From Metallibacterium scheffleri (lineage in GTDB: Bacteria; Pseudomonadota; Gammaproteobacteria; Xanthomonadales; Rhodanobacteraceae), in assembly GCF_002077135.1 (NCBI RefSeq), contig NZ_LDOS01000001.1, forward strand, positions 384,219 through 448,218: DNA of 64,000 nt, read 5' to 3'. Below are positions 2,532 to 6,784 of this stretch, one piece after another; the stretch's first letter is position 1, and every line of letters begins with the position of its first letter. The position numbers were made by a program, and so were the translations under genes. The notes under the pieces are model-generated. The model was not told the DNA's origin and did no database searches. It worked only from the letters and a program-made list of their open reading frames with translations.

Positions 2532-3725
2532 TCACAGCCGCGCGCGGCGATCGGCCAGCAACAACTCGGCGGGCAGCGCCGCGGCGGCCAGACCGCGCGC
2601 GAACAGCATGGCCTGGAAGCGCTCACCCATGGCCTCGGGCAGCATCAGGCGCTTGATCTCCTGCGCCAACGCGTATAGCCCGGCGGCATCCAGTCCGACG
2701 GCGGCCTCGGCGTGTATCTGTTCCAGCCCTGCCGCCAGCAGGAATTGCCCTTGCGGCACGTAGGCCGCCAGCTCCAGGCCCGCGCCCTGTCCGGCCTCGG
2801 CCAGCGCGCTGAAATCGACGCTGGCGGTGAGGTCCTGCAGGCCGGGATGCAGGAACACGTCCGCGTGCACGCGCTGCCGGTAAAACGCGCGCAAGGTGCC
2901 GTTGGCGCGTTGCGGCAGGTAATACTCGGCGCGCGGGTAACCGTAATCGACGAACAGTGCCAGCCCGGCCTCGAGCGTGCCGGCCACCGCCTGCAGCCAG
3001 TACGGCAATTGCGGCAGCAGCTCCGAGCGGTAACCATCGGCGAACGCCCGGCCCAGCGTGCGCTCGAGATGACGCACGGCGGCGGACGTCAGCGCATCGG
3101 CCGGGCGATCCCGGCGCACGAAGGCGCCGGCACCGTCCAGCGCCACGTGCTCCTCGAACACCTCGCCGCCACGCAGCGTGAAACGCGTGGCCGGCAGCGC
3201 GTCGATCACCTCGTTGGCGAACAGCACGCCGCGCCAGGGCGTCTCGGGCGGGCGCTCGAGCCACTGCACGCGCGCGTACAAGTCTTTCGGCAGGCGCTCG
3301 CGCAGTCGCGCCTGCTGGCGCACGCGCAGCTCGGCGCTGGGTTCCAGCATCAGATACCTTGCCGGCAACGCCTCGCGCAGCGCCAGCGCCGCCAGCGCAT
3401 GTTCGGCGAAGGCGCCGCTGCCGCCGCCCAGTTCCAGCCAGTCGGCATCCGCGCCCAATAGCTGCAGCGATGGCGCCAGCGCCGCCGCCACGCAACGCGC
3501 GAACACGGGCCCCAGCTCGGTGCTGGTGACGAAATCGCCCAATGCGCCGAACTTGCGCGAGCCAGCGCTGTAGTAACCCAGCCCCGGCGCGTACAGGCAG
3601 CGCTCCATGAAAGCGTGGAACGGCAGTGGCCCGTGCGCGGCGATGGTTTCGCGCAGCAGCGCGCTCAGGCGTGCCGAATGCGCGAGCGCATCGGCATCGG
3701 GTGCGGGCAGATCGGTGGGCTGCAT
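2532..3725 (-). CDS. MidA-family SAM-dependent methyltransferase
   Basis: 397-residue protein of the COG1565/DUF185 family (MidA/NDUFAF7), class I SAM-dependent methyltransferases; the mitochondrial member methylates an arginine of a complex I subunit, while the bacterial role is unproven. Visible features are the family N-terminal signature FMERCLYAPGLGYYS, then GDFVTSTELGPVFARC, and the SAM site ELGGGSGAFAEH. The start chosen is MQPTDLP at 3725 rather than the upstream in-frame Met at 3854, because the truncated copy at 4600-4841 begins with the same residues at its ATG and the upstream DNA differs. The 5' ~240 bp is nearly identical to that truncated copy (see the pseudogene entry). Confidence 0.9.
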   Translation of the reverse strand: MQPTDLPAPDADALAHSARLSALLRETIAAHGPLPFHAFMERCLYAPGLGYYSAGSRKFGALGDFVTSTELGPVFARCVAAALAPSLQLLGADADWLELGGGSGAFAEHALAALALREALPARYLMLEPSAELRVRQQARLRERLPKDLYARVQWLERPPETPWRGVLFANEVIDALPATRFTLRGGEVFEEHVALDGAGAFVRRDRPADALTSAAVRHLERTLGRAFADGYRSELLPQLPYWLQAVAGTLEAGLALFVDYGYPRAEYYLPQRANGTLRAFYRQRVHADVFLHPGLQDLTASVDFSALAEAGQGAGLELAAYVPQGQFLLAAGLEQIHAEAAVGLDAAGLYALAQEIKRLMLPEAMGERFQAMLFARGLAAAALPAELLLADRRARL

Positions 3726-3877
3726 GGCTGGTCCTTGGGCGACAGCCGGCAAGCCTACATGCGCCGGCGCGTGCGCATGGCGCGTGCGGCGTGGCGCACC
3801 AGCCGCGCCACTGGCGGTCGCGATTCTGACTGTGGAGCGGCCGAACGCGGCCATGGTGCTTGCCGCCCCATGTCGAC

Positions 3878-3896
3878 TATGGCTAAATGCGCCATA
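3878..3896. promoter_or_regulatory. Inverted repeat, possible TA operator
   Basis: TATGGC-7 nt-GCCATA, with six-base perfect arms ending 1 bp before the ATG of the TumE-like gene. Toxin-antitoxin modules are commonly autorepressed through palindromes overlapping their promoter, so this is a plausible operator for the downstream HTH antitoxin. The sequence alone does not prove binding. Confidence 0.4.
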
Positions 3897-3897
3897 A

Positions 3898-4188
3898 ATG
3901 AAAGCCGCGCTGGTCTACCACGACAAGCTGATCGATGTGGATGGATCCATCATCGAGATGAAGATTTGGCGCGTGCCGTTGCCGGTCGACGGCAGTCATC
4001 ATTTGCTCAAGTACAGCCTGTACTACGGGCGTGGCGGCGGGCGCATCGTGGGCTACGACAACGAGTCTGGTAAAGGCGATCATCGCCATCTGCACGACGT
4101 GGAGATGCCCTACACCTTCACCACCGTCGAGCAGCTGCTGGTCGACTTTATCGCCGATGTGCAACGCGAACGAGGGCAACAACGATGA
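3898..4188 (+). CDS. TumE-like (DUF6516) toxin of a type II toxin-antitoxin module
   Basis: 96-residue protein matching the TumE/DUF6516 small-protein family, in which toxins are paired with an HTH antitoxin. Recognisable features are the N-terminal strand-rich segment, the KYSLYYGR...GYDNESGKGDHRH stretch with a conserved HxxH-like cluster, and a C-terminal helix (TVEQLLVDFIADV). It overlaps the downstream antitoxin gene by 4 bp (ATGA), so translation is probably coupled. The pair lies between the intact methyltransferase gene and a truncated copy of its 5' end. The toxic mechanism cannot be read from sequence; the family call is by recognition, not search. Confidence 0.75.
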   Translation: MKAALVYHDKLIDVDGSIIEMKIWRVPLPVDGSHHLLKYSLYYGRGGGRIVGYDNESGKGDHRHLHDVEMPYTFTTVEQLLVDFIADVQRERGQQR

Positions 4189-4535
4189 AGAAGACCATCA
4201 CCATCCATGTCAATGATTCGCTGCAAGCCATGGGCGAGCGCTTCGCGGACGCGTGGCATCGCGCCGAGTCTGGCCGGGAGATGGCCGAAACGCACATTGG
4301 CTTCGTCGAGCTGGAAGCCATGCTGTCGGCCTTGACCCCCAAACGCATGGAATTGCTGCGCGCTCTGCATGCTCATCCGGCCAAGGATGTGATGGCCTTG
4401 TCCAAGGCGCTGGGCCGCGACTACAAGCGCGTGCACCAGGACGTTCGCGAGTTGAGCGCCACGGGCTTGGTGGTGAAAGGTCCGCGCGGCGTGTGCGTCC
4501 CTTACGACGTGGTTCATGCCGAGATGAAGCTGTAG
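4185..4535 (+). CDS. TumA-like HTH antitoxin
   Basis: 116-residue DNA-binding protein. Residues ~40-105 form a winged-helix domain (LTPKRMELLRALHAHPAKDV, then LGRDYKRVHQDVRELSATGL, then a beta wing), like the HVO_A0114-type HTH antitoxins that partner TumE/DUF6516 proteins. Its start overlaps the toxin stop by ATGA. It probably neutralises the toxin and represses the operon, perhaps through the inverted repeat at 3878-3896. The toxin-first order is that of the known tumE-tumA pairs. Confidence 0.75.
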   Translation: MKKTITIHVNDSLQAMGERFADAWHRAESGREMAETHIGFVELEAMLSALTPKRMELLRALHAHPAKDVMALSKALGRDYKRVHQDVRELSATGLVVKGPRGVCVPYDVVHAEMKL

Positions 4536-4599
4536 ACGCGCAACCGCGCGCCGTCAGTGCCAACTGCACGGGTTCGGCGCAGGCGCCGCTGCCGCCCGG

Positions 4600-4841
4600 T
4601 TTCTGCCAACGCGCGAACACCGGCCCCCCAGCTCGGTGCTGGTGACAAAATCGCCCAATGCGCCGAACTTGCGCGAGCCAGCGCTGTAGTAACCCAGCCC
4701 CGGCGCGTACAGGCAGCGCTCCATGAAAGCGTGGAACGGCAGTGGCCCGTGCGCGGCGATGGTTTCGCGCAGCAGCGCGCTCAGGCGTGCCGAATGCGCG
4801 AGCGCATCGGCATCGGGTGCGGGCAGATCGGTGGCTTGCAT
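4600..4841 (-). pseudogene. Truncated duplicate of the MidA-like methyltransferase 5' end
   Basis: From the ATG at 4841 the minus strand encodes MQATDLPAPDADALAHS and continues through GDFVTSTELG essentially identically to the intact gene at 2532-3725; only about three base substitutions were seen over the first ~220 bp. Near 4620 extra C residues shift the frame and similarity ends about 4600. Upstream DNA of the two copies is clearly diverged, though a CGGCAAG.CTA stretch is shared. The TA module lies between the two copies. A recent duplication coupled to acquisition of the module, or a recombination event, is the simplest explanation. Confidence 0.85.
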
Positions 4842-4895
4842 GAGATCGACTGGCGCAAATCGGCAAGTCTATCCGCGCGGCGCAGGCGCCGCGGC

Positions 4896-6784
4896 ATCGG
4901 GTAGGGAGCCGGAATCCTCCGGTCCCCTCCCACACCACCGTACGTGCGGTTCCGCATACGGCGGTTCATGAGTGACGCTGAAGATACCGGCTGGTTTCGA
5001 TCATTGAGACCAACTTCAGCCGGTCGAAGAAGGCTTTCGGAAACGCCTGATTCATGTGACTGGCACCACTGTTCCACCATGGGCCGTGCCCGTTGTGTCC
5101 CGAGTGCCAAGCCCGCGCCTCCGGCAGCCCTCGTTTGCGCAGCAGCGCGGTACGCCGCGGACGCGTCTTGGCTTGCCGCCATAGCAGGCAGCGCAGCCGA
5201 CGCCGCAGCCATCCGTCGAGGTCCTTCCACACCGTCTTGCTCTCGCTGAGCTGGAAATAGCCGATCCATCCACGAAGCACCGGGTTCAGTGTCTCGATGG
5301 TGTGGGTCAGGCTACGTCCGCGCCCCTGACGCAGCAGTTCACGCACGCGGTCGGTCAGGCGGGCCACGCTGTGCGGCGCGACCTTGAGCCTGATATGACC
5401 ACCGGCGTTCGTCAGGGTGTAGCCCAGAAACTTGCGTTTCCATGGCGTGGCGCATGCGCTCTTGGCTTCATTGACCTGCAACTTCAGGCGTTCGTCCAGG
5501 AACACCTTCATGGCGGCCATCACGCGCTGCCCTGCCGCTTCGCTTCGGACATAGATGTTGCAATCATCCGCATAACGACAGAACGCGTGTCCGCGCTTTT
5601 CCAGTTCGCAATCCCAATCCGTGAGCAGGATGTTGGACAGCAACGGCGACAACGGCCCGCCTTGCGGCGTGCCTTGGTCACGTGCTGTTTCCACCCCGTC
5701 ACGCATCAAGCCCGCTTCCAGATAACGGCGGATCAGCTTGAGCACCCGCTCGTCGTCGACGTGCCGGGCGACCCGCGACATCAGGATGTCGTGGTTCACC
5801 CGGTCGAAGAACTTCTCCAAGTCCATATCCACCACCCACGCACGGCCCTCCTGCACATAGTGCTTGGCCGCACGCAGAGCTTGATGGGCACTGCGCCCCG
5901 GCCTGAAACCGTAGCTCGATGCGGAGAACGTCGGCTCGACGATCGGTTGAAGGACTTGCAGCAGCGCCTGCTGGATCAGCCGATCCAGCACCGTCGGGAT
6001 GCCCAGTGTCCGCACCCCGCCCGAGGGCTTGGGAATGTCCACCGCGCGCACCTCCGACGGCAGGTAACTGCCGTCCAGCAAGGCTGCTCTCACGCAGGGC
6101 CAGTGTCTCTTCAGCCAGTCCTTGAACGATCCCACCGTCAGGCCATCGACCCCCGGTGCGCCACCGTTACGAACCACCTTCTGATACGCCGACCACACGT
6201 TGCTGCGTTCGATCACGGCCTCCATCAGCCGTGACACCTCCGCTTTCGTTTGCCCGGCTGCCGCCGTGATCGACTCGGCACCACACGGCCTACCCACGGG
6301 ATACTGTCCCGCCTCTTGGCCCTTGGCCCCGGCTTCCCGGGCTTCTGCTTCGTCGTCGATCATCGAGGTTCAGTCGTCCTAATCGCGGTCTCTCATGTTC
6401 GGCCCTTCGGTCATAACGCACCTACTACGCCCCGCAGGAAGTCCCCTTGGGGGATGGCCTCTGCTGACTTCTCGCTCCGCCTTCCAGCGTCGCCCTTTCA
6501 GGCATGAGGCGAGATCTCCCCGGGTATGACGCACCTGCCTTCCCGCTTATGCCTGTCGGATATACGCCACGTCGTCTGTGCAAGTACCGGGCTTTGACCC
6601 CTTTTGCTGCCTCACCCCAACGTGTCGCCTCGTATCCGCTTCCTGTTCGTCAGGCCAGCGCTTTGCCTCGGGCTTCCTTCAGACGACCAGTCACCCGATT
6701 CGCCCTTGCCTCTGGCTAACTCTTCCCCTTGCCGGGTGAGTAGAGGACTTTCACCTCCAAGCAGGTGCGCCCTGCCGGGCGCAC
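4896..6784 (-). mobile_element. Group IIC intron 2 (complete, 1889 bp)
   Basis: On the minus strand it begins GTGCGCCCGGCAGGGCGCAC at 6784 and ends CCCTACCCGAT at 4896. Positions 6784-6364 hold the 5' ribozyme domains, with no other gene. The 5' end abuts the U-rich tail (CTTTCTTTTT) of the intrinsic terminator of the TonB receptor gene, which is the textbook target of group IIC introns: the stretch directly 3' of a terminator stem. A domain V-like hairpin (about 4966-4933) follows the maturase. The 3' exon is the upstream region of the truncated methyltransferase copy. Confidence 0.88.
4966..6363 (-). CDS. ltrA: Group IIC intron reverse transcriptase/maturase
   Basis: 465-residue intron-encoded protein. 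The RT domain shows GGAPGVDGLTVGSF, VRTLGIPTVLDRLIQQA, SYGFRPGRSAHQAL and the catalytic YADD at residues 264-267. The maturase X domain has LNPVLRGWIGYFQL. The C-terminal region, with WRQAKTRPRRTALLRKRGL and later HMNQAF, is typical of class C maturases; no HNH endonuclease is present. The stop codon lies at the edge of the domain V hairpin, the usual compact arrangement. The first ~45 residues look low-complexity and could be dispensable if translation starts at the Met at 6225. Confidence 0.95.
   Translation of the reverse strand: MIDDEAEAREAGAKGQEAGQYPVGRPCGAESITAAAGQTKAEVSRLMEAVIERSNVWSAYQKVVRNGGAPGVDGLTVGSFKDWLKRHWPCVRAALLDGSYLPSEVRAVDIPKPSGGVRTLGIPTVLDRLIQQALLQVLQPIVEPTFSASSYGFRPGRSAHQALRAAKHYVQEGRAWVVDMDLEKFFDRVNHDILMSRVARHVDDERVLKLIRRYLEAGLMRDGVETARDQGTPQGGPLSPLLSNILLTDWDCELEKRGHAFCRYADDCNIYVRSEAAGQRVMAAMKVFLDERLKLQVNEAKSACATPWKRKFLGYTLTNAGGHIRLKVAPHSVARLTDRVRELLRQGRGRSLTHTIETLNPVLRGWIGYFQLSESKTVWKDLDGWLRRRLRCLLWRQAKTRPRRTALLRKRGLPEARAWHSGHNGHGPWWNSGASHMNQAFPKAFFDRLKLVSMIETSRYLQRHS

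Follow-up and report, generated by a model that had tools for sequence, protein, structure and literature searches.

Toxin-antitoxin (TA) pairs are scattered over chromosomes without any visible mobility enzyme, and to our knowledge the way in which they move is largely unexplained. The midA locus of Metallibacterium scheffleri raises this question in a concrete form. Here a TA pair lies between an intact gene and a truncated copy of the 5' end of the same gene, so it can be asked how the pair arrived, which of the two gene ends is the native one and whether such an arrangement is found around other TA pairs. The locus was analysed in the window, i.e., the whole stretch of 64,000 nucleotides to which all coordinates refer unless a locus is named.

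The midA locus and its toxin-antitoxin pair

The intact midA-like methyltransferase gene (Methyltransf_28, Pfam E-value 1.8e-54) is situated on the minus strand at 2532-3725 and is 82-85% identical at the nucleotide level to orthologues that occupy the same syntenic position as single copies. Its 5' end (copy A, 3493-3725, minus strand) is repeated as a displaced, truncated midA 5' end (copy B, 4607-4841, minus strand). The two copies share 236 aligned bp with 97.5% identity, which agrees with the roughly 240 bp and few substitutions noticed in an earlier, sequence-only reading of this locus. Between 3510-3725 and copy B there are three substitutions, and copy B carries one 2-bp insertion. The first codons of copy B, ATGCAAGCC (ATG CAA GCC), are those of a congener (locus L009), while the first codons of copy A, ATGCAGCCC (ATG CAG CCC), differ from them.

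The pair between the two copies was confirmed as complete by Pfam matches of both genes. The TumE toxin of 96 aa is encoded on the plus strand at 3898-4188 (PF20126, 7.7e-15, 55.1 bits against a cut-off of 23.4), followed on the same strand at 4185-4535 by a TumA-like winged-HTH antitoxin of 116 aa (PF25212, HVO_A0114; 1.3e-20, 73.4 bits against a cut-off of 27.6). Both ORFs are co-oriented and adjacent with a 4-nt overlap, the antitoxin start lying over the tumE stop. The aligned invariant residues are present in TumE, and tumE is single-copy in the genome. A TumA-like HTH partner was found beside TumE in nearly all homologous loci. The candidate operator at the TumE start, the palindrome TATGGC-N7-GCCATA at 3878-3896, is supported by the homologues, since a similar palindrome is present near the TumE start codon in 31 of 77 of them and in 0.5% of shuffled controls. 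The TA region has a lower G+C content (58-59%) than midA (about 70%). Between the repeats, family matches were obtained for the TA pair alone and no integrase gene was found, and a search of plasmid DNA with the TA region gave a single 84-bp match of 79%. In another member of the TumE-TumA superfamily the toxin inhibits translation and the antitoxin neutralises it (PMC10584680). The present pair resembles that superfamily in the TumE domain toxin, the HTH antitoxin partner and the operon order of the sampled homologues; it is nothing unusual in itself, and its toxin role is predicted.

The arrangement without the insert was observed in three congeners. The genomes G005 (L009), G009 (L008) and G006 (L010) carry midA only once, without the TA pair, and in L009 the gene order is ABC gene, midA, TonB gene. 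One midA copy between these neighbours is thus the ancestral arrangement, and relatives devoid of the TA pair but carrying both midA copies were not encountered among these loci. Two different group II introns (540-2400 and 4890-6770) bracket the block formed by midA, the TA pair and the truncated midA, and the relatives lack them; neither is present in L009. Their ORFs, encoding reverse transcriptase plus maturase, lie at 630-1961 and 4966-6363, and Rfam domain V-VI matches were obtained on the minus strand at 543-614 and 4896-4966.

Native and displaced ends of midA

The upstream regions of the two copies have diverged, as had been claimed, aside from a -10-like element. The upstream or promoter region of the intact gene (3726-3776, minus strand) and that of the truncated copy (4842-4890, minus strand) are modestly similar when aligned, 10 of 2000 shuffles being as good. 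The element shared within the family (form TATCCTTGC) is present in both, as TAGGCTTGCCG beside copy A and TAGACTTGCCG beside copy B. The L009 sequence aligns unbroken through copy B into the sequence upstream of it (4607-4896), and the match to L009 is better for the upstream region of copy B (score 23) than for that of copy A (score 11). The native midA promoter is therefore the one now joined to the truncated copy, and the intact midA reads from a different, new upstream region. This region (3726-3776) was probably imported together with the TA pair. Promoter and terminator scans found nothing.

At its inner end the displaced copy continues in a decayed or imported midA fragment (4545-4596, minus strand) equivalent to 3374-3425 of the intact gene. 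Its alignment score with midA was not reached by any of 1000 shuffles, and about 57 bp are deleted between it and the start of copy B at 4607. The fragment is 79% identical to the midA of its own genome and 85% identical to that of L008 and L010. Of its 11 differences from the intact gene, 9 affect the first or second codon position. Polarisation with the congeners placed some of the changes on the side of copy B and some on the side of copy A, which indicates that the two copies have long been separate. The TA module is thus directly flanked by long direct target repeats, composed of 236 bp at 97.5% identity and a diverged extension of 52 bp.

Along the repeat the identity runs from 79% through 97-100% to about 70%, the inner flanks being at 65-79%. 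A tract that is nearly identical while its homologous flanks have diverged points to recombination or gene conversion acting on a duplication that is older, or was imported, and the 97% tract looks homogenised or recombined. The truncated copy had been taken as recent. The remnant at 79%, the diverged upstream regions and the inner repeat flanks of 65-79% speak against this; only the homogenised or duplicated native tract is recent, and that age is not secure for the duplication as a whole.

Duplicated gene ends at other toxin-antitoxin loci

TumE loci were sampled from the genome collection, the family, the class and the phylum, plus larger stretches, and the tight flanking repeats met at several of them were inspected individually. 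As a control, the same sampling was applied to HigB pairs, which belong to an unrelated TA family but likewise have the toxin gene first. Within 700 bp on both sides, the loci were searched for direct repeats with a minimum of 60 bp and 85% identity. They were found at 6 of 104 TumE loci, 4 of 87 HigB loci and none of 1500 random positions (Fisher 6e-8 and 8e-6), where the P values are indicative only because the 60-bp and 85% threshold was picked after looser runs, the random positions are unmatched to acquired intergenic genes and many of the records are metagenome bins. With a looser test (at least 35 bp), repeats were present at 8 of 89 TumE loci against 8 of 492 random positions, five of the latter coming from one repetitive locus.

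The repeats are mostly gene ends, of putA, ychF, lipA, DUF502, DUF427 and icmF; for putA, ychF and lipA, Pfam and NCBIfam confirmed the identity. Around TumE pairs they comprise the 3' end of putA (69 bp, G108) and of ychF (95 bp, G664), each with two copies in the genome, and the 3' end of lipA (90 bp, G295, L179), where the TA pair follows lipA. On the intergenic side the similarity in these three cases ends close to the stop codon, a few bases away at most, and inside the gene it breaks off at no particular point. A TumE-like pair in L169 is flanked by a 99-bp repeat of a tRNA-like 3' end (oriented positions 1800-1898 and 2873-2971), as at island attachment sites, and in L182 two copies of a small gene, 93% identical, stand on either side of a weak TumE match (oriented positions 1535-1779 and 3009-3253). 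The latter gene, which ends in ...KERITIRLSRDVVDRF..., is possibly a BrnA-like antitoxin. The HigB cases show the 3' ends of DUF502, DUF427 and an icmF-like mutase. The last of these, a HigB-type pair with an icmF-like repeat of 198-216 bp at 88% (L242, C2:1694685-1697954), is found in the same genome as the midA locus; this repeat contains a dispersed element, GTCATCCTGAGCGCAGCGAAGGATC.

Duplicated gene ends thus do occur around other TumE-TumA pairs, repeats being present at 6 of the 104 loci, and around TA modules elsewhere. An integration pattern specific to TumE is not supported. The rate at HigB loci, one of them in the same genome, is similar, so the footprint is common to TA pairs. Other kinds of repeat were also met in the survey. 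REP-like dispersed repeats explain L062, L091, L125, L269 and others, which were left out of the gene-end count. Repeats resembling integron attC sites surround the TumE pair in L081 (1086-1157 and 1998-2068; several copies) and perhaps in L172, and on the strength of these repeats some TumE pairs may travel as integron cassettes. An integron was also considered for the midA locus and rejected, as attC-like repeats were not seen there.

The direction of displacement could be read in one further case. When the two lipA ends of L179 were compared with the lipA end of a congener (G422, L294), the truncated copy scored 67 and the intact gene 55. The truncated copy is closer to the end of the congener, so the intact lipA end appears imported and the displaced copy native. 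This is the same direction as in midA, with the native end displaced. Polarisation was uninformative for putA and mixed for ychF, the relatives being too distant or mosaic. Among the 30 codons that differ in seven gene-end cases, 16 changed synonymously, where about 27% would be expected to do so (p=0.002; the counts are small). This suggests that the copies accumulated their differences in separate functional genes.

Routes of entry and comparison with known systems

The sequence-only reading had proposed the insertion of a TA cassette with duplication of the gene start, and alternatively homologous recombination in which the incoming DNA held both the TA pair and the gene. From the first proposal the intact state of the gene and the single midA of relatives hold, while its recent date and a restriction to TumE are not supported. 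The alternative fits better, and import is favoured because the upstream region and first codons of copy A look non-native, those of copy B look native and the displaced lipA copy is native. At the midA locus we put at about even the chances that the cassette entered through recombination at the midA 5' end, bringing a replacement end and displacing the native one. The TumE-TumA pair would then be an ordinary foreign TA cassette without its own recombinase, and the incoming DNA would have carried it with midA-like sequence on either side, i.e., promoter and first codons at one end and a piece of midA at the other. By homologous pairing within midA, the native body of the gene would have acquired the imported promoter end and so stayed whole, and the native 5' end with its promoter would have been left beyond the TA pair as the truncated copy. 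The 236 bp between the junctions would be native sequence, either duplicated or later homogenised by gene conversion. In the finished unit, recombination between the two arms could lead to excision or to transfer into genomes with a similar gene end. The donor, the route (ends-in or homology-facilitated illegitimate) and the order of events we infer. Import has to assume a very short homology arm on the promoter side, consisting of the first codons, or later conversion. A search for a donor genome with a TA pair beside midA found none, and no midA lies near the TumE loci of the family.

A similar structure would also result if the TA pair had inserted itself in place and copied a long target of about 400 bp, covering the midA 5' end and promoter, after which the middle was renewed by gene conversion while the outer parts drifted apart. 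The anatomy is the same as in the target duplications of about 100 bp known from restriction-modification systems, the 97% tract is consistent with both copies descending from one native target, and the changes in the fragment at 4545-4596, mostly at codon positions 1 and 2 and in conserved residues, resemble those of a decaying copy. However, copies made in this way should begin identical, yet the promoter and first codons of copy A are unlike the native ones, and some of the differences in the fragment are changes on the side of copy A. The intact lipA end is likewise the foreign-looking one, and the synonymous excess in the gene-end cases also speaks against it. We consider insertion in place, the main rival, less likely, at somewhat over half the weight given to import.

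An order of events in which the 5' end of midA was first duplicated in tandem and the TA pair landed later between the copies by chance would suit the old duplication indicated by the midA fragment. No relative carries the duplication but lacks the TA pair, and gene-end duplications occur at 10 of 191 TA loci against none of 1500 random positions, which makes coincidence unlikely; this order is accordingly held to be improbable. Even less credit is due to the flanking group II introns as the cause of the rearrangement, by ectopic recombination or retromobility. One stands on each side of the block and both are absent in relatives, but their reverse transcriptase proteins are different, both introns lie outside both midA copies, and none was noted in passing at the junctions of the other gene-end TA loci.

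Entry by homology-assisted recombination at gene ends is, we infer, the best reading for TA cassettes in general. A wider proposition is advanced tentatively and with more doubt than belief: chromosomal TA pairs of unrelated families may spread free of recombinases by carrying a homology arm taken from the end of a conserved host gene, where the arm replaces the native end, the gene continues to work, the old end is displaced and the TA pair is not cleanly removed except by recombination between the arms. If a duplicated gene end is retained as a footprint by about 5% of TA pairs, and if the native copy is the one displaced, a testable route of transfer would be at hand. TA transfer would then proceed by recombination at conserved gene ends, a link would exist between TA pairs and the long target duplications seen with restriction-modification systems, which are another addiction module, and the duplicated gene end would serve as a footprint searchable in any genome. 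In the freely readable literature no description of duplicated gene ends around TA pairs was found, only of larger islands. Direct repeats flanking small variable segments are generally short, mostly under 30 bp.

A similar displacement has been proposed for the T6SS effector-immunity modules of Vibrio cholerae (PMC5361080). There too a toxin-immunity module enters via a conserved anchor and the old gene is shifted downstream; their anchor lies within the effector locus, whereas here it is the end of an unrelated housekeeping gene. The uptake of foreign DNA by homology-facilitated illegitimate recombination is well established (de Vries and Wackernagel 2002; Meier and Wackernagel 2003; Prudhomme et al. 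2002, as cited in PMC2884548) and is also described in E. coli conjugation (PMC3240628). As far as the cited accounts go, one homologous anchor and one illegitimate junction add foreign DNA and can leave partial duplications, as would be the case here. Those are laboratory events, whereas the present one is deduced from anatomy, with the homologous side placed at the midA start and a second junction that is also midA-like (the fragment at 4545-4596).

The nearest parallel in structure is the insertion of restriction-modification systems with long target duplication (Nobusato et al. 2000, as cited in PMC3031569, PMC1643837 and PMC3874152). By these accounts, both cases involve a small addiction module without recombinase, long direct target repeats of variable length, of the order of 100 bp, and an unoccupied site in relatives that carry the target once, here L009, L008 and L010. 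Such insertion is described for restriction-modification genes and, in the literature searched, for neither TumE-TumA nor HigBA. Unlike in those systems as they are cited, the duplicated targets here are mostly gene ends, and in lipA and probably in midA one copy looks imported instead of having been duplicated in place.
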